Notes under the pieces: model-generated
What the model was told of the DNA's origin: nothing
The model's database searches: none
Seen by the model: the letters and a program-made list of their open reading frames with translations, nothing else
Translations under genes and position numbers: made by a program
Shown: in pieces, positions 16,796 to 51,987 of the stretch
Layout of the letters: each line of letters opens with the position of its first letter
Position numbering within the stretch: the first letter of the stretch is position 1
Assembly (NCBI GenBank): GCA_021824635.1
Contig: JAKAKD010000035.1
Span: 1-58,218, forward strand
From: Bacteroidota bacterium
Lineage (GTDB): Bacteria > Bacteroidota > Ignavibacteria > Ignavibacteriales > Melioribacteraceae
Length of the DNA: 58,218 bases
Reading direction: 5' to 3'

Positions 16796-17959
16796 TTACT
16801 TCTGTTTATTTTTAAGAATAAAAAGCATAAAAACTATTAATAATGAAACTATGGATGAGATAAAAAACGGCACTTGCGCTCCGAAGCTGTCCCATAAAAT
16901 TCCAGTAAGAAATGAACCAAACATAATTGCAAAACTAGAAAGTGCTGTAAGTAATCCTATTGCAGAACCGCGGAATTCATCCGGTACAAGATCGGATACC
17001 CACGCTTTGGAAATTCCCTCTGTTGAAGAAGCATAAATTCCGTAAAGAGCAAAAAGAAGCCAGACAACTACATTATCACTGTTAATCGCAAAACCGAAAT
17101 AGACTGCAGAAAAAATTATCAGACCAAAAATGAAAATGTTTTTCTTGCCGAATTTGTCCGAGATTATTCCGATAGGATAAGATGAGAGCGCATAGATTAA
17201 ATTATAGAACACATAACCAAGAATAGCCGTTGTATCCGAGTGAGATATTTGTTTTGATTTTAAAATCAAAAAAACATCGCTGCTGTTAACCAAAGAAAAT
17301 AATGTAAATACAACAAGAAGAATTTTATATTCGGAAGGTGCGCTATTCCAAAATTCCAGATACATTTTTTTCTTAGAATTTTTCAATGCGCCTTTCGCAT
17401 CTTTAACCACAAATGTAAAACCAATTGCGAACAAAGAAGGAATTAGAGCAAACAAATAAATCCAACTATACTTTCCTGGGAAAAAGTTAAGAAGAACAAT
17501 TGCCGCAATAGGTCCCGCAACCGCACCAAAAGTATCCATAGCCCGATGAAATCCGAATACTGCTCCTGTATTTCCATTTGCATAACTAGCAAGAAGCGCA
17601 TCGCGTGGTGCGGTGCGAATCCCTTTACCAATTCTATCAACAATGCGAGCCGAGACAACTGATGGAATGGTTGCAATCAATCCGGGAATAGATTTGAACA
17701 AGCCCGAAAGACTATAACCGATAATAACAAAAATTGAACGCTTGCCAATTTTATCTGAGAGTGATCCAAAATAGCCTTTTAATAGTCCGGCAGTTACTTC
17801 TGCAATGCCTTCTATTAATCCAACCACAGACATCGAGGCTCCGAGAATTGAAGTCAGGAAAATTGGAGTTATTGGGTAAAGCATCTCGCTTGCAAAATCC
17901 GTGAAGAAACTGACCAGTCCAAGAATCACAACAGATCGTGATATGTTTTTAAATTTCAT
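16796..17959 (-). CDS. MFS transporter
   Basis: A 387-residue integral membrane carrier with about 11-12 hydrophobic segments and the MFS motif between the second and third (GSLSDKIGKRS near residue 66), repeated in the second half (GIISDKFGKKN). These are the two pseudo-symmetrical MFS halves. The substrate cannot be assigned. The upper region RIGKGIRTAPRDALLA resembles a subgroup often annotated as multidrug or uncharacterised exporters. It is divergent from the Sua5 gene, so the 18.0-kb intergenic region may hold promoters for both directions. Confidence 0.88.
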   Translation of the reverse strand: MKFKNISRSVVILGLVSFFTDFASEMLYPITPIFLTSILGASMSVVGLIEGIAEVTAGLLKGYFGSLSDKIGKRSIFVIIGYSLSGLFKSIPGLIATIPSVVSARIVDRIGKGIRTAPRDALLASYANGNTGAVFGFHRAMDTFGAVAGPIAAIVLLNFFPGKYSWIYLFALIPSLFAIGFTFVVKDAKGALKNSKKKMYLEFWNSAPSEYKILLVVFTLFSLVNSSDVFLILKSKQISHSDTTAILGYVFYNLIYALSSYPIGIISDKFGKKNIFIFGLIIFSAVYFGFAINSDNVVVWLLFALYGIYASSTEGISKAWVSDLVPDEFRGSAIGLLTALSSFAIMFGSFLTGILWDSFGAQVPFFISSIVSLLIVFMLFILKNKQK

Positions 17960-18099
17960 TTTAATAAAATATTTGTTAATTCAATTTCTTCAAACAAGTT
18001 CAATATTCCAAAAAGTTTCTAAAGACAAATTAATAAGCTAAGATAGAACTTCATATAAAATCTTCATAACTTATCTTGAGATTTATGAAAGGAACTGAG

Positions 18100-43831: not shown

Positions 43832-44341
43832 TTACAATTCAAGATTTTCATCACCAAAGTCAGAATTCCATTTAAGCGCATTGAACTGAATATAATTACG
43901 GATATTATACAGTCCTTTTTCATTTCTAATTATTCTATCGTAAAATGATCTTTGCCAAATATTACGGGTAGCTGTTTTATTATTTTCATTTATTCTTTTT
44001 GTTGATTCATATTTGAAATAAGCAATGATTTGGCTTAATGAAAATTTCTTCGTTTTAATATCGGGTTGAGGAAACCTCAACCCTACGACACCATTAATAA
44101 TCAATATTCCATGAAAATGGTTTGGCATAATTATAAATTTATCTATCTCAACATTCAGAAAATGATCTAAAATAGCCATCCAACTTTGTTCAACTATTTT
44201 ACCATTCTCATTGAGATGCATAGTTCCATTATTCACAAAACCAAAAAGTGATTTTTTATCATTAGCACAGATTGTAATAAAATAGTAGTTTGGCGAAGAA
44301 TAATCGAATTCCCTTAGACGTGTTCTTTTGCGTTCTAACAT
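43832..44341 (-). CDS. REP-associated tyrosine transposase-like protein (Y1/HUH family)
   Basis: A 169-residue single-strand DNA endonuclease of the IS200/RAYT type. Motifs: the HUH pair is HFH at residues 75-77 in IMPNHFHGI, and the catalytic tyrosine is Y134 in RSFYDRIIRN, followed by EKGLYNIRNYIQFNALKW. N-terminal RLREFDYSSPNYYFITIC is typical. No insertion-sequence ends or second gene are present; instead palindromes sit 58 bases downstream (43748) and 54 bases upstream (44395), and another lies inside the gene at residues 85-92. This arrangement suggests a domesticated RAYT with its REP repeats. Mobilising activity is not demonstrated. Confidence 0.85.
   Translation of the reverse strand: MLERKRTRLREFDYSSPNYYFITICANDKKSLFGFVNNGTMHLNENGKIVEQSWMAILDHFLNVEIDKFIIMPNHFHGILIINGVVGLRFPQPDIKTKKFSLSQIIAYFKYESTKRINENNKTATRNIWQRSFYDRIIRNEKGLYNIRNYIQFNALKWNSDFGDENLEL
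44063..44083. repeat. Palindrome inside the RAYT coding frame
   Basis: GGGTTGAGG, loop AAA, CCTCAACCC. On the coding strand it reads VGLRFPQP in frame (residues 86-93), a short insert in a variable surface region between the HUH motif and the next helix. It is followed by CTAC, as in the other palindromes. Confidence 0.85.
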
Positions 44342-47250: not shown

Positions 47251-47552
47251 TTGGGGAAACCGTCATTGGGATCAATAGATTATTTCCTTATTAACTCTGT
47301 AAAAAAAATCCTCAACACAACTATAAAATATCCCATTCCAGTAGAGACGAGGCATGCAACGTCTCTACAACATATTGCGGTAGAGGTTTACGACAAACTT
47401 GGAAGAGAAGTTACTACACTTGTAACGAGCAAAAACTGCCCGGCAATTACGAAGTAAAATTTGATGGAAGTAATCTTTCAAGCGGAGTTTATTTTTACAG
47501 ATTGCAGGGCGGTTCATTCAGTCAGACAAAAAAAATTGTGCTGATGAAATAA
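47251..47552 (+). pseudogene. Remnant of a T9SS C-terminal sorting domain, frameshifted
   Basis: Only the end of a T9SS-targeted protein remains. In one frame it reads [20 protein letters not shown] and [15 protein letters not shown], up to about 47424. The rest ([20 protein letters not shown], then FYRLQGG... to KKIVLMK) is in another frame and ends at TAA 47550-47552. A single missing A in GTAACGAGC (expected GTAAACGAG) explains the shift. Passenger sequence upstream is lost or unrecognisable. It directly precedes two intact-looking relatives, so it may be a decayed duplicate or a donor for recombination. Confidence 0.75.
47341..47368. repeat. REP-like palindrome in the sorting-domain remnant
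   Basis: GTAGAGACG ... CGTCTCTAC arms of a 28-base unit. The centre (AGGCATGCAA) has two mismatches compared with the perfect copies at 49544 and 51775. Confidence 0.85.
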
Positions 47553-47566
47553 TAATAGTGAGAGAT

Positions 47567-49756
47567 ATGAAAAAGATTTTAACAATAGCATTAATCTTTA
47601 TATCAATTAACATGAACGCTCAATGGGTAATGAAAAATCCTAGTTCATTTGGTGGTATTAATTCCTTTTCATTCTATTCAAAAAATAATGTGTGGTTTAG
47701 TCTGGTTGGAGGTGATTTATACAATCTAAACTTAGAAAAAAAAATAATTAAAAAAATTTACAAAGGAGGGAGCAATATATCCAATATTAGCTTTGTAGAC
47801 TCTTCATACGGTTTTATTTCATCAGGTAATAATATTTTAAGAACAATAAATGGTGGAACAAATTGGGATACAGTTAATACTTACGGCTCAATGACTAAGT
47901 TTTTCTCCAAAGAAAAAGGAATCTCGGTAATAGAGTACCAAGGAATCTATGTAACTAGTGATGGGGGAAAATCATGGAATAAAAAAGTTGGTTGTTATAT
48001 TCTTGATTCATTTAATATGGTAAATCAATTTTATGGTACGTTTATTACCCATGTTCCTTTTATGTATAATAATGTGTATGCCTATTATAAAACCACCGAT
48101 GGCGGGAACAACTGGATCGAGTATGATTCTAAGACTTTAGACCCATTAGAATCTTTGTTTACTAAAGTATCTTTAGATAATAGACCAGAGTGGTATATAA
48201 ATCCGAATAGTGATTTTCCTAACTCAGTGAGCCCAACTTTATTGAAAATATTAGGGAACACCTTAAACGGTAATTTTTATGAGAATAATCTTTTGATAGA
48301 AAAGATTTGGGTTGTTGACTCACTTATAAACTATGCACTAACAAAGTCATTTGCAGATTATGTAATAATCAAAACAATTAATGGTGGTAAAAATTGGGAA
48401 TCAATGAATTCAGTTCCTTATGATTATACTACCGATATTGGATTCAAAATGTTTGATACGAATAATGGAATTTTGACATCCCGTAATTCCATTCAAATCA
48501 CCCGCGATGGTTGTACATCATTTGAAAAAGTCTTCGAAATTGATAATAGAAATAGTTTTAATGAAGATCTACTGGACATCTATTCAAAAGACTCAACAAA
48601 TATTTGGGCAGTTTCTAACAAGGGATCTTTCATCAATTCGACAGACAAAGGAAACTATTGGCAAGTAAAAATTAACAATAATCTAAATGCTCTGGTTCAA
48701 GCTAAATTTTTAGATTCACAAACTTCTTATGGAATTAGTAACAACATATTTTATTCTACTACTGATCAAGGTCTTACATGGAAAAGCTATGATTTTAGCC
48801 AAGAATTAATTGGTGCAGCAAGACTGCTTCATATGTTTTTCGTCGATAAAAATTATGGCTGGATATGCGCAGAGAATCATACTCTTTTTTCAACAAAAGA
48901 CGGCGGAAATACATGGGAAGTAAATCACTTGAACATCCAGTCTCCTAGTAATGACCATGTTCAATCTTCTTATTTCTTTGATAGAAATAACGGTTTTCTA
49001 CTCGTTGGTGAGAGATACATATGGGAAACCGATGACGGAGGAAAAACATTTAGTAAAATTCCGTTTGAGGATTGGTATGTAATCAAACAATTCTCATGTT
49101 TCAGTAAAGAAGAATGGTGGTTATCTACTATGGGATTTGGGATTAGAAAAACGACAGATGGAGGTAAAAATTGGGTATTGGTGAATCCCCCAACCAATAA
49201 TCCCTTATATAATGACTATCCAATGAGACCAATATATTCAATTGGCAAAGGAATAAAATACTTACCCGGCTGGAATGGTGAAATTTATAAAACAACTGAT
49301 GATGGTATAACATGGAATAAAACAGTTTTAGCAAATAGTGATCTTAGAATTAAATTTGACAATCTTTTAGTCTTCCAAGAAAAGGATGCTTGGCTTGTTG
49401 GAAGCAAGGGTGCCATTTTTTATAATCAATTGAAAAATAATTCTGTTATAAAACCACAAATAATTCCAAATGATTATTATCTATTTCAAAACTATCCCAA
49501 TCCGTTTAACCCAACTACAACTATAAAATATTCCATTCCAAACGTAGAGACGAGGCATGCCTCGTCTCTACAACATATTACGCTAAAGGTTTACGACATG
49601 CTGGGTCGCGAAGTTGCAACACTTGTAAATGAAGAAAAAGCACCTGGCAATTACGAACTAAAATTTGATGGAGGTAATCTAACAAGCGGAGTTTATTTCT
49701 ACAGATTACAGGCAAGTTCATTTAGCGAAACGAAGAAATTTATGCTACTAAAATAA
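47567..49756 (+). CDS. Large T9SS-exported protein with YCF48/BNR-like repeats
   Basis: A predicted cell-surface or secreted protein. A signal peptide ends near NAQW (residue 20). The body consists of repeated beta-propeller-like blades with Asp-box-type motifs (TTDGGNNW, TKDGGNTW, TTDGGKNW, TTDDGITW), the YCF48/BNR type. The C-terminal 95 residues are the type IX sorting domain starting YLFQNYPNPFNPTTTIKYS and ending in KKFMLLK. A palindrome inserts NVETRHASSLQHI between YSIP and TLKVYD. Length is about 729 residues from ATG 47567. The target and ligand of the blades are unknown. Confidence 0.88.
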   Translation: MKKILTIALIFISINMNAQWVMKNPSSFGGINSFSFYSKNNVWFSLVGGDLYNLNLEKKIIKKIYKGGSNISNISFVDSSYGFISSGNNILRTINGGTNWDTVNTYGSMTKFFSKEKGISVIEYQGIYVTSDGGKSWNKKVGCYILDSFNMVNQFYGTFITHVPFMYNNVYAYYKTTDGGNNWIEYDSKTLDPLESLFTKVSLDNRPEWYINPNSDFPNSVSPTLLKILGNTLNGNFYENNLLIEKIWVVDSLINYALTKSFADYVIIKTINGGKNWESMNSVPYDYTTDIGFKMFDTNNGILTSRNSIQITRDGCTSFEKVFEIDNRNSFNEDLLDIYSKDSTNIWAVSNKGSFINSTDKGNYWQVKINNNLNALVQAKFLDSQTSYGISNNIFYSTTDQGLTWKSYDFSQELIGAARLLHMFFVDKNYGWICAENHTLFSTKDGGNTWEVNHLNIQSPSNDHVQSSYFFDRNNGFLLVGERYIWETDDGGKTFSKIPFEDWYVIKQFSCFSKEEWWLSTMGFGIRKTTDGGKNWVLVNPPTNNPLYNDYPMRPIYSIGKGIKYLPGWNGEIYKTTDDGITWNKTVLANSDLRIKFDNLLVFQEKDAWLVGSKGAIFYNQLKNNSVIKPQIIPNDYYLFQNYPNPFNPTTTIKYSIPNVETRHASSLQHITLKVYDMLGREVATLVNEEKAPGNYELKFDGGNLTSGVYFYRLQASSFSETKKFMLLK
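49544..49571. repeat. Perfect 28-base palindrome in the sorting domain of the first T9SS gene
   Basis: GTAGAGACGAGGCA followed by its exact reverse complement. In frame it reads VETRHASSL plus the first base of Q. Because the unit is its own reverse complement, both orientations give the same peptide. Confidence 0.92.
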
Positions 49757-49798
49757 CCTGATCAAATATTGATTTATGCTAATTGTTTTGGAGGGTTA

Positions 49799-51559
49799 AT
49801 GACAAAAATTTTCCACATATCGAAACTCATTGTTACCTTAGTAATATTTTTATATACTATTTCTTATTCTCAAAACAGGTGGCAATCAATTAATCCACAA
49901 CCGACAGGATTTGATTTATACAAAATAGATAAAGATACATATGGAAACCTTTGGGCTTTCGGAGATTTTGGGACTATAATCAAATCCACAGATAATGGTA
50001 ACTCATGGAATCATCTATTAATAAATGAATATAATGCCCTATATGACGCCGCGATAGTTAATAATGAAATATGGGCTGTTGGTGCAAATGGATTAATATT
50101 ACATTCGGAGAATAATGGCTCAACCTGGTTAACACAAAACTCGAATACAACTAAGCATTTGGTCAAAATACAATTTGTTGATGAAAAGAACGGTTGGGTT
50201 ATGGCACAAGATAGTGTGATTCTAAGAACAGAAGATGGCGGTGCTAGTTGGGAAATTATAAATATTAATTCTCGCTGGACTCAATGTGACATGGCATTTT
50301 TAAATTCCAAGAATGGATTTTTATTGAGTGGTTATTTTTCTCCAGGTATTGATTGGATAGAAGCTTATTCTGAAGGCGCCTTGCTTAAAACTACTGATGG
50401 AGGAAAATCATGGAATTTATTTACAACTGGGACAATCAACTACAAAACAATCTTTTTTTTGAATGATAAAACAGGATTTATTTCTGCTATCGATTACTTA
50501 AAAGGAAACATGATATTAAAAACCACCGATGCCGGAATTAACTGGGATACAACGAAAACAAATAATAGCTGGTCGAAATTATTCTTCCGCGATTCGAATA
50601 ATGGAATTGGGTTTAGCAGCCATTATATTGGTAAAACAACAAACGGTGGAATAGATTGGGTTTTGTTGGACTTAATTGAAGTCCCCTCTCAAGTTAGCAG
50701 ACTTATAAGCATTTTTTCCAAAGATGAAAATGTAATAGTTGCTGGAACGGAAGGAAATATACTTAGAAGTTCTAATTTTGGTAATGACTGGATTAATCTT
50801 AGAAAATCTTTATCAATTTATTACGGCCATCTTCAGGGGATTACTTTTATCGATAGTCTGAACGGATTCGTTTATGGACAACAATGGGGTGATTTTCCTC
50901 AAGCCGATCCCTTACTTATTCATACAAAAGATGGCGGGAAAACCTGGATTAAAGAACAATCGCCGGATACTTCTGGCTTTACCATTATGAAAATCAATGC
51001 AGATGTAATTTGGGCAACAAGTCGTTCGTCATTATATAAATCAATCAATAAGGGAATTAACTGGATCAAAATGTTTACTAATCATGAAACAGATTTAATA
51101 AGGGATTTTTCGTTTTGTGGTGAAGAGAAGATGGGGCTCATTGCGGGAAGAAATTTTTATTTATCTACAAATGGAGGTGAGGATTGGACTACTCACAAAT
51201 ATTCTGATGGAATGTTTATGAAACAATTACTCATGATTAATGAAAAAAGGTGGATCGTGTTAGGACATAATGGTTTAAATGAGCCATGTTATATAACAAA
51301 TGATAGTGGAGAAAATTGGATTTTATGGGATCGGAAATTTACTGCTATGAATTTTATCAATGATAAAATCGGTTATGGTATTGATAGCGTTATTTATAAA
51401 ACAATAGATGGTGGTTACAATTGGAATGTAGTTTCGAGTTCAATGAAAAACAATACTTACTGGGTCTCTTCTTTATATTTCTTAAATGAAAATATTGGTT
51501 GGATGCAAAGCGGTAATGCGGCATATTTTACCAATGATGGTGGAAATAATATGGGATAA
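49799..51559 (+). CDS. Second T9SS-type YCF48/BNR protein, passenger part
   Basis: A paralogue-like surface protein with a signal peptide (start ATG 49799, after GGAGGG; leader ends near ISYSQ) and repeated blades (STDNGNSW, TEDGGASW, TTDGGKSW, THEDGGKTW-like HTKDGGKTW, TNDSGENW, TIDGGYNW). It stops with TAA at 51557-51559 after ...FTNDGGNNMG. A tandem 8-base duplication at 51551-51566 is the reason: with one copy the frame would run into the downstream sorting domain. As it stands, this 587-residue product would lack its T9SS signal. Confidence 0.82.
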   Translation: MTKIFHISKLIVTLVIFLYTISYSQNRWQSINPQPTGFDLYKIDKDTYGNLWAFGDFGTIIKSTDNGNSWNHLLINEYNALYDAAIVNNEIWAVGANGLILHSENNGSTWLTQNSNTTKHLVKIQFVDEKNGWVMAQDSVILRTEDGGASWEIININSRWTQCDMAFLNSKNGFLLSGYFSPGIDWIEAYSEGALLKTTDGGKSWNLFTTGTINYKTIFFLNDKTGFISAIDYLKGNMILKTTDAGINWDTTKTNNSWSKLFFRDSNNGIGFSSHYIGKTTNGGIDWVLLDLIEVPSQVSRLISIFSKDENVIVAGTEGNILRSSNFGNDWINLRKSLSIYYGHLQGITFIDSLNGFVYGQQWGDFPQADPLLIHTKDGGKTWIKEQSPDTSGFTIMKINADVIWATSRSSLYKSINKGINWIKMFTNHETDLIRDFSFCGEEKMGLIAGRNFYLSTNGGEDWTTHKYSDGMFMKQLLMINEKRWIVLGHNGLNEPCYITNDSGENWILWDRKFTAMNFINDKIGYGIDSVIYKTIDGGYNWNVVSSSMKNNTYWVSSLYFLNENIGWMQSGNAAYFTNDGGNNMG

Positions 51560-51566
51560 TGGGATA
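51551..51566. repeat. Tandem 8-base duplication ATGGGATA x2
   Basis: Two abutting ATGGGATA copies at 51551-51558 and 51559-51566. Removing one restores a single frame from the blades to the T9SS domain; with two the first frame ends in TAA and a second frame restarts at ATG 51559. Confidence 0.9.
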
Positions 51567-51987
51567 CTCAAGTGTTCCCGACATCTCGGCAATGAGTATT
51601 GTTGATCAGAACAATGTTTGGTCTGTTTCAAATAACGGAAGAATATTTAAAATGATACCAGGCACCATAACTGATGTTAAAGAAATGCATATTGCGTTAC
51701 CACAGATTATTTATTTATACCAAAACTATCCCAACCCGTTTAACCCTACTACAACAATAAAATATTCCATTCCAGTAGAGACGAGGCATGCCTCGTCTCT
51801 ACAACATATTACGTTAAAAGTTTACGATATACTCGGAAAAGAAGTTGCAACTCTTGTTAACGAAGAAAAAGCACCGGGTAATTACGAAGTAAAATTTGAT
51901 GGAGCCAACCTGTCAAGCGGAGTTTATTTTTATCGTTTACAAAGTGGTTCATTCACTCAAACAAAAAAATTTGTATTAATGAAATAA
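51559..51987 (+). CDS. Second T9SS-type protein, detached blade end and sorting domain
   Basis: The continuation of the preceding gene in the other frame: the last blade (MGYSSVPDISAMSIVDQNN, then VWSVSNNGRIFKM) followed by the sorting domain starting YLYQNYPNPFNPTTTIKYS and ending KKFVLMK. Its possible ATG overlaps the stop of the passenger part (TAATG), so termination-reinitiation could make this 142-residue domain alone, but it has no signal peptide and would stay in the cytoplasm. A perfect palindrome encodes VETRHASSLQ at the same site as in the neighbour. Confidence 0.82.
   Translation: MGYSSVPDISAMSIVDQNNVWSVSNNGRIFKMIPGTITDVKEMHIALPQIIYLYQNYPNPFNPTTTIKYSIPVETRHASSLQHITLKVYDILGKEVATLVNEEKAPGNYEVKFDGANLSSGVYFYRLQSGSFTQTKKFVLMK
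51775..51802. repeat. Perfect 28-base palindrome in the sorting domain of the second T9SS gene
   Basis: Sequence identical to the copy at 49544-49571, and at the equivalent codon position except that the extra AAC codon before it is missing. Confidence 0.92.

Follow-up and report, generated by a model that had tools for sequence, protein, structure and literature searches.

The window analysed here is a 58,218-nucleotide stretch of DNA (contig JAKAKD010000035.1 of assembly GCA_021824635.1, positions 1 to 58,218) from a Bacteroidota bacterium of the Melioribacteraceae, in which a 28-bp palindrome, GTAGAGACGAGGCATGCCTCGTCTCTAC, is found three times in association with C-terminal domains (CTDs) of the type IX secretion system (T9SS). 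Genomes, contigs and loci are labelled G, C and L below, G000 being the window's own genome. Perfect copies lie at 49544-49571 (copy 2) and 51775-51802 (copy 3) and a copy with two altered bases at 47341-47368 (copy 1), all on the plus strand; the three matches in the window compare with none in 100 shuffles. VETRHASSLQ is the in-frame product of copies 2 and 3, with YSIP before and ITLKVYD after, and the CTDs of both exceed the cut-off of TIGR04183, the model of the T9SS type A sorting domain. Copy 2 belongs to a plus-strand gene (47558-49756) that, by its domain matches, encodes an exported protein with BNR/Ycf48-like repeats and a C-terminal Por_Secre_tail (CTD at 49493-49744). Copy 3 lies in a 142-amino-acid open reading frame (ORF) at 51559-51987 (plus strand; CTD at 51727-51975). 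The preceding ORF (49769-51559, plus strand) encodes a BNR/Ycf48-like passenger without a CTD, and its stop codon overlaps the start of the 142-amino-acid ORF, in another frame, in the sequence TAATG. Passenger and CTD are likely to be one gene broken by a frameshift, or by an assembly error.

Copy 1 is located between an aconitase gene and the BNR-repeat gene. The region that holds it (47317-47552, plus strand) is 81.4% and 82.8% identical to the CTDs of copies 2 and 3, respectively, with gaps of 14 bases and 1 base in the alignment. None of the listed ORFs of at least 100 amino acids spans 47317-47552, and TIGR04183 matched this region at model positions 39-70 alone, i.e. after the unit. Judged by its sequence, copy 1 sits in the remains of a decayed CTD; the sorting domain there is no longer intact. 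A unit edge placed 24 bp before the palindrome in copy 1 was dropped, as the alignment shows a 14-base gap in the decayed CTD. The first-pass annotation had described three sorting domains with the palindrome in frame between YSIP and TLKVYD, two units being perfect and one having a changed centre. The units are real and the two altered bases of copy 1 were confirmed, but the intact domain and the in-frame peptide hold for copies 2 and 3 only, copy 1 being in a remnant without a listed ORF. Its centre reads AGG in the left arm and CAA in the right arm. Alignment with relatives identifies the centre as a hybrid, with a left half of the AGG-CCT type, as in the neighbouring copies, and a right half of the TTG-CAA type. 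The TTG-CAA type occupies the equivalent turn of CTDs in Melioribacter roseus and in a same-genus genome, and of a decayed CTD on contig C93 of the own genome.

The spacing between the N-YPNP motif and strand 2 of the CTD was 24 residues in 26 of 29 CTD rows without the unit and 25-26 in the other three, compared to 31 residues for copy 3 and 32 for copy 2. The net gain is thus 21 bp for copy 3 and 24 bp for copy 2; as 28 is not a multiple of 3, the insertion of a clean 28-bp unit does not describe it. The claim of the same insertion site is true of the turn and not of the base position, an additional AAC codon preceding copy 2. In the predicted structure of the 142-amino-acid ORF (mean pLDDT 73.7, pTM 0.57), the palindrome-encoded residues 73-82 lie between predicted strands at residues 64-71 and 82-89, the confidence being lower for the loop; the model predicts that the unit in the window's CTD forms the hairpin turn.

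The units have the form GTAGAGACG-N10-CGTCTCTAC, a palindrome within the 20-40 nt range that begins with GT[AG]G and ends with C[TC]AC. A search of the own genome (3.06 Mb, 107 contigs) for the 28-mer, as had been suggested, returned 16 places with at most 3 mismatches; they are not confined to CTDs, three being in genes that resemble those for REP-associated tyrosine transposases (RAYTs), where REP stands for repetitive extragenic palindrome. The outer arms were present with at most one mismatch in 24 of 57 genomes (own genome and relatives), while a reversed control pattern was present in none of those 57. The copies are multiple and dispersed, some of them outside long open frames, and pairing of the stem is kept across sequence change, with the proviso that copies of one genome are not independent. 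These properties fit double-foot GTAG REP elements of the RAYT/TnpA_REP system, of the subclass 2.4 type. According to Quentin et al. 2018 (PMC6006769), the transposase genes of subclass 2.4 themselves contain in-frame REPs, and the likeness extends to the GTAG...CTAC palindromes, the in-frame insertion between the HUH and Y motifs, the flanking copies and the distribution in Bacteroidetes and Cyanobacteria. A new mobile element was set aside because the anatomy fits the double-foot REPs described there. It is the RAYT link, absent from the first-pass annotation, that identifies the element.

The element is therefore of a known kind, while its setting in CTDs is apparently new. The main text of PMC6006769 does not contain the term T9SS; the sorting-domain host, the probable spread by recombination and the apparently half-converted palindrome are features of the present case. 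No report of REPs in T9SS sorting domains was found in the open-access PMC literature, where the nearest match was to MITEs next to such genes (see below); this is weak evidence of absence. A literature text search for the DNA and peptide strings returned, among the matches listed, a 9-mer only, in records unrelated by title. The GTAG-tagged REPs of Di Nocera et al. 2013 (PMC3733652) share the GTAG tag, the dispersed palindromes and the intragenic copies, including an example at about the same recB site in two Xanthomonas species. Their tag is at one end, whereas the units here are footed at both, and the GTAG hosts given in the relevant part of that article are Proteobacteria, Cyanobacteria, Chloroflexi and the PVC superphylum, with Bacteroidetes not among them. 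Rickettsia palindromic elements (RPEs), as presented in the same article, are also in-frame palindromic units in protein genes, but they are defined by a CGTC tag at one end and no dedicated transposase, RPE-4 and RPE-6 being CGTC repeats of this kind; units that end in GTAG/CTAC and are linked to a RAYT do not belong with them. In Porphyromonas gingivalis, 5 of 19 BrickBuilt elements adjoin CTD genes of the Por secretion system (PorSS) (PMC4596501). Those elements are described as miniature inverted-repeat transposable elements (MITEs) beside genes, in contrast to REPs in frame within the domain.

In three RAYT-like genes of the own genome the palindrome is in frame directly after the HUH motif MPNHIHG, between the HUH and Tyr motifs. 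Their matches to NCBIfam REP_Tyr_transpos had E values of 1.3e-15, 1.1e-10 and 0.0039, the last for a gene truncated by the contig end. Each of the three is accompanied by one or two more copies, 39-328 bp beyond the ends of the matched stretch, the arrangement of a REPtron: at 389 on C7 (gene match 3-350), at 56499 on C35 (55866-56402) and at both 17231 and 18344 on C92, either side of 17579-18016. Two of these four flanking copies have 1 or 3 arm mismatches. Six RAYT-like proteins scored 17 to 67 bits (best E 2e-18) against NCBIfam NF047646, the REP-associated tyrosine transposase, and three of the six exceeded the Pfam Y1_Tnp cut-off. The subclass 2.4 motifs given in Table 1 of PMC6006769 are HUH NH[IFV]H, WQ and Tyr YIxNNP. 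Among five aligned rows, NHIH or NHVH was present in all five and WQ in all four that reach that stretch intact; the three rows that cover the Tyr motif have YIEQNP (two) or YIHYNY (one), which differ from the exact YIxNNP.

The association extends beyond the own genome. A profile built from five of the RAYT-like proteins found relatives in 41 of the 57 genomes. Among 69 HUH genes of the own genome and its relatives, taken from loci of the better-scoring profile matches after exclusion of those too near the locus end (72 rows earlier), a palindrome scoring at least 11 was present within 120 bases after the HUH motif in 35, compared to none in the 120 bases before the motif and one further downstream. 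The palindromes in the RAYT loop vary (GTAGAGACG, GTAGGGACG, GTAGGGGCG and others) and use more than one reading frame. Among 198 genomes drawn from the phylum, tallied by hand with at most 17 candidates scored per genome, a RAYT was found in 24 of the 28 that have the palindrome arms, compared to 58 of the 170 that lack them (Fisher 3.5e-7, uncorrected for kinship).

Further RAYT-like genes were observed in the course of this survey. The window itself contains one on the minus strand (43832-44341; REP_Tyr_transpos / Y1_Tnp), 3 kb from copy 1, whose HUH loop has no palindrome. The relative locus L144 is 87% identical to it up to the HUH motif and likewise lacks a GTAG palindrome in the loop. 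The RAYT genes of L146 (G001, C3) and L135 (G000, C7) are 93% identical up to the loop, and the palindrome of L146 has in its centre an extra, partly self-complementary stretch of 21 bases that keeps the frame. Those of L089 and L094 are 84% identical up to the loop and differ in palindrome, frame and downstream part; by its sequence this pair looks like a chimera joined at the palindrome.

To examine the centres, 165 copies were picked by the outer arms alone; the arms are invariant in this analysis because they were the search key, and copies from the same genome are not independent of one another. In 125 of the 165 copies every one of the five free centre pairs was complementary (0.17 expected), with 67 different centres. 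On the 67 distinct sequences the covariation score was 0.347, compared to 0.079 when shuffled (0 of 500 shuffles reached the value), and changes on both sides were counted in 155 cells versus 45 in shuffles. G-U pairs occupied only 2 of 335 free-pair cells. Frequent changes on both sides and the near absence of G-U fit a palindrome that is constrained as DNA. The low G-U count also bears on the proposal that the palindromes are RNA elements, terminators or mRNA-stability hairpins kept for expression. All units could fold in mRNA, and such roles have been hypothesised for REPs (PMC3733652), but RNA would tolerate G-U pairs and the CTD units lie 32-88 codons ahead of the frame end; we regard this explanation as highly unlikely.

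Least probable of all is a functional role for the peptide VETxxxxSLQ within the sorting domain, with the palindrome incidental. The unit does occupy one recurrent place in the domain and its in-frame coding is kept. However, a peptide conserved in sorting domains that lack the palindrome was not seen: in the unit-free CTDs examined in G000, G057 and G059 the turn is, with few exceptions, short and of constant length, the peptide varies with the centre and two CTDs use another frame. The same DNA in RAYT loops and outside long open frames, together with the many both-side and few G-U changes, also argues against it. The conserved functional peptide was set aside on the grounds of frames, centres and empty CTDs. 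The first-pass annotation had stressed that a self-complementary unit encodes the same peptide in either orientation. This is true of any palindrome; the useful trait of this one is that two of its three reading frames are open, the third beginning with TAG, and that both are used.

The CTD turn was a recurrent host. A search of 84,980 species genomes (genome_contigs) for the palindrome with a strand-2-like motif within 33 bases gave 74 stretches with 77 matches, of which 34 were CTD-like by regular expression. Of these 34, 32 share a frame and 2 use another, and 17 centres are represented. Because the search pattern favours CTD contexts, 34 of 77 is no estimate of the CTD share among all copies. 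By their record titles the 34 span 15 assemblies, from Ignavibacteria (Melioribacteraceae, Ignavibacteriaceae and others), a Chlorobiota bin, several Bacteroidota bins and two 'bacterium' bins; the remaining matches were mostly outside CTDs, many of them cyanobacterial. Counts free of this bias placed 8 of 14 copies in CTDs in G057, 15 of 18 in G059 (a sixteenth by eye), 1 of 4 in G060 and, after 2 of 36 copies with identical context were merged, 9 of 34 in G058, where 16 others were in stop-to-stop frames of at least 150 amino acids. By identical places G059 is the same as G041 and G060 the same as G005, the latter from the genus of the window's genome. The offset of the unit varies: 12 units in G059 lie some residues later and themselves form the start of strand 2, and the turn in the CTD type of G058 is equated with it on the basis of an alignment.

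TIGR04183 hits numbered from 43 to 151 in five counted genomes (the first scoring of G059 CTDs took 150 of 277 candidates). Of the 43 hits in the own genome, at least 6 come from CTDs whose turn holds a REP, namely the window's three (including the partial match of copy 1), that on C93 and two on C21; other REP types were looked for in some of the hits. The two C21 CTDs carry a different, single-foot REP at this turn. The two frames, differing offsets and two REP types found at the same turn show that it was entered more than once across lineages. Independent insertions might then be the whole explanation, either because a RAYT repeatedly targets the DNA of the turn or because only insertions in loops survive. 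The varied centres, offsets and frames in the 15 assemblies and the second REP family on C21 are what this would produce; we nevertheless consider it doubtful as a complete account, given the net gains of 21 and 24 bp, which are unlike a clean 28-bp insertion, and the comparisons within genomes that follow.

Other placements of the palindrome were recorded in passing. CTDs of G058 (record WQTX01, Bacteroidetes bin Cu122P3bin3), e.g. L338, L352 and L337, apparently contain up to three REPs each, as judged by eye: before the domain, at the strand 1-strand 2 turn, and, as a GTAGGGGCGAAC...GTTCGCCC type, after GRLV. The centre CGATTAATCG is common to L175, L204, L217 and L220, from four Bacteroidota bins, at a conserved position near the start of one gene, which we take from its sequence to resemble dihydrolipoamide dehydrogenase. 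Cyanobacterial GTAGAGACG...CGTCTCTAC units outside CTDs were found at L176, L179, L186, L188, L195, L196, L208, L216, L218, L222, L223, L227, L229, L236 and L244. A few further matches came from Anaerolineae, Gracilibacteria, Brocadiaceae, Desantisbacteria and Spirochaetaceae bins.

Codon usage beside the unit was compared within genomes, using identical residues only and 300 permutations, between CTDs with the palindrome and other CTDs. The comparison drew on 34 of the 105 CTDs of G057, 42 of the 151 of G059 and 32 of the 43 of G000, chosen mostly for their high scores and not at random; a few loci contributed more than one row. In G059, codon identity in the 8 codons upstream of the unit was 0.85 among filled CTDs versus 0.46 among the others (0 of 300 permutations), while there was no excess 9-17 codons upstream (0.53 versus 0.55). 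The excess continued downstream (0.72, 0.65 and 0.64 versus 0.57, 0.45 and 0.43). Beyond codon -23, amino-acid identity among the 12 G059 CTDs with TCATATATGA was at most 0.32. In G057, identity was 0.59 just upstream and 0.62 and 0.55 downstream, versus 0.43-0.47 (4, 2 and 9 of 300 permutations). Tolerance of the loop alone would not require alike flanks, so their likeness bears on spread between CTDs. Independent insertions alone thus leave unexplained why synonymous codons are shared beside the unit, 0.85 versus 0.46 in G059 and 0.59-0.67 versus 0.43-0.47 in the nearest segments of G057.

A pair of tandem paralogs in G057, one filled and one empty, was also compared. Their identity starts at 0.96 and 0.90 across the 100 columns that lead up to the unit's surroundings, drops to 0.76 and 0.65 in the roughly 100 columns that contain the unit, and returns to 0.90 and 0.94 in the 100 columns after that, which delimits a divergent tract of roughly 120 bp. 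This is the pattern that a conversion tract would leave, and it does not resemble a clean 28-bp insertion. Given the alike flanks of filled CTDs and this tract, the most likely carrier of the unit within a genome is recombination between CTD copies. The expectation that duplication or recombination, and not independent insertion, spread the units is thus supported within a genome, by the shared synonymous codons and the tandem-pair tract, but not across lineages, where several entries are needed. Shuffling of passengers onto sorting domains, which the first-pass annotation had also raised, found no support: the measured tract is short, and the protein likeness in G059 is lost a short way upstream of the domain.

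Domain duplication alone, in which a CTD gained the unit once and gene or domain copying did the rest, with neither conversion nor repeated entry, accounts for the three adjacent CTDs of the window, with copy 1 so similar to copies 2 and 3, for the tandem paralogs in a relative and for the codon likeness in G057, which spans the whole start of the domain. It fails to account for the end of the codon excess about 8 codons upstream in G059, with low amino-acid identity (at most 0.32) beyond codon -23, or for a divergent tract enclosed by more similar sequence in the tandem pair, and two frames and two REP types at one turn require more than one entry. We consider it unlikely.

The explanation that we favour, and hold to be quite probable as a whole, combines these elements: RAYT-linked double-foot REPs are tolerated in DNA for exposed loops, namely the transposase loop after the HUH motif and the hairpin turn between strands 1 and 2 of the CTD, enter the CTD turn repeatedly and spread from there by conversion. 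It is supported, at the level of sequence, by the same palindrome in RAYT genes, in CTDs and outside long frames, by adjacency to RAYTs and co-occurrence with them in genomes, and by centres that vary in a complementary way, repeated entry into the CTD turn and codons shared next to the unit among CTDs of one genome. A genome's first copy would come from a RAYT acting on single-stranded hairpins, as the anatomy and the published biochemistry of RAYTs of other subclasses suggest; other RAYTs are reported to bind and cut the REP as a single strand (PMC8266576). Later CTD copies would arise by gene conversion between CTD paralogs, with the similar flanks supplying the homology. Selection would enforce frame and loop tolerance, and hairpin-dependent copying or exchange, to judge from those other subclasses, might keep the palindrome at the DNA level; the anatomy suggests that the loop residues are merely tolerated. 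In the window, the ancestral CTD lineage probably held the TTG-CAA palindrome, as in Melioribacter roseus and the same-genus genome; copies 2 and 3 would then have been converted to the AGG-CCT type and copy 1 half converted.

Several observations weigh against this explanation. Exact copies number 4 to 36 per genome in four genomes, which is few for REPs. None of the six RAYT-like proteins reached the equivalog cut-off of NF047646 (80 bits), so they are described here as relatives and not filed under that equivalog. In the phylum draw, the association of RAYT and palindrome was not corrected for relatedness, and 4 of the 28 genomes with the palindrome (G065, G091, G114 and G195) had no RAYT at the threshold. 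In seven genomes, considering copies among the matches listed, 6 of 30 distinct outside centres equal a RAYT-internal centre of their own genome, where 2.2 are expected and 95 of 5000 shuffles reach 6; in G059 the CTDs have mostly TCATATATGA and the RAYT-internal unit is GGATATATCC. Of five covariation measures, the two cruder ones failed to beat the shuffles (499 and 477 of 500). G057 has no sharp left edge, codon identity being 0.61 versus 0.46 at 9-17 codons upstream, which fits wider domain copying too. Finally, the tandem pair is uneven farther upstream too, most 50-column windows of columns 0-600 having identities of 0.66-0.80, and columns 850-900 one of 0.70.

A bolder possibility is that occupied loops are docking sites, at which a RAYT cuts at both GTAG feet and exchanges the hairpin for that of another REP; the site would persist and its centre would change. 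We rate this as improbable. If it were true, CTDs and the HUH loop of the RAYT would be standing landing pads for REPs in which the cassette is renewed, breaks from the cassette would reshuffle the surrounding domain, and copy 1, half AGG and half TTG, would be an intermediate.

The spread of REPs and the upkeep of their palindromes are unsettled questions, the mechanisms of REP dissemination having been termed poorly understood (PMC8266576). CTDs offer many paralogs per genome, filled and empty, so that gain, exchange and change of centre can be traced at one defined protein loop. Its value lies in the filled, empty and half-converted sites that a single genome makes available for comparison. 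The palindromes seem to pass from tag to tag by recombination, their sequence changing while the palindrome is kept. If REPs are exchanged at occupied sites, the function of RAYTs would be testable there. The setting also points to REPs changing the tag by which these bacteria export surface proteins.

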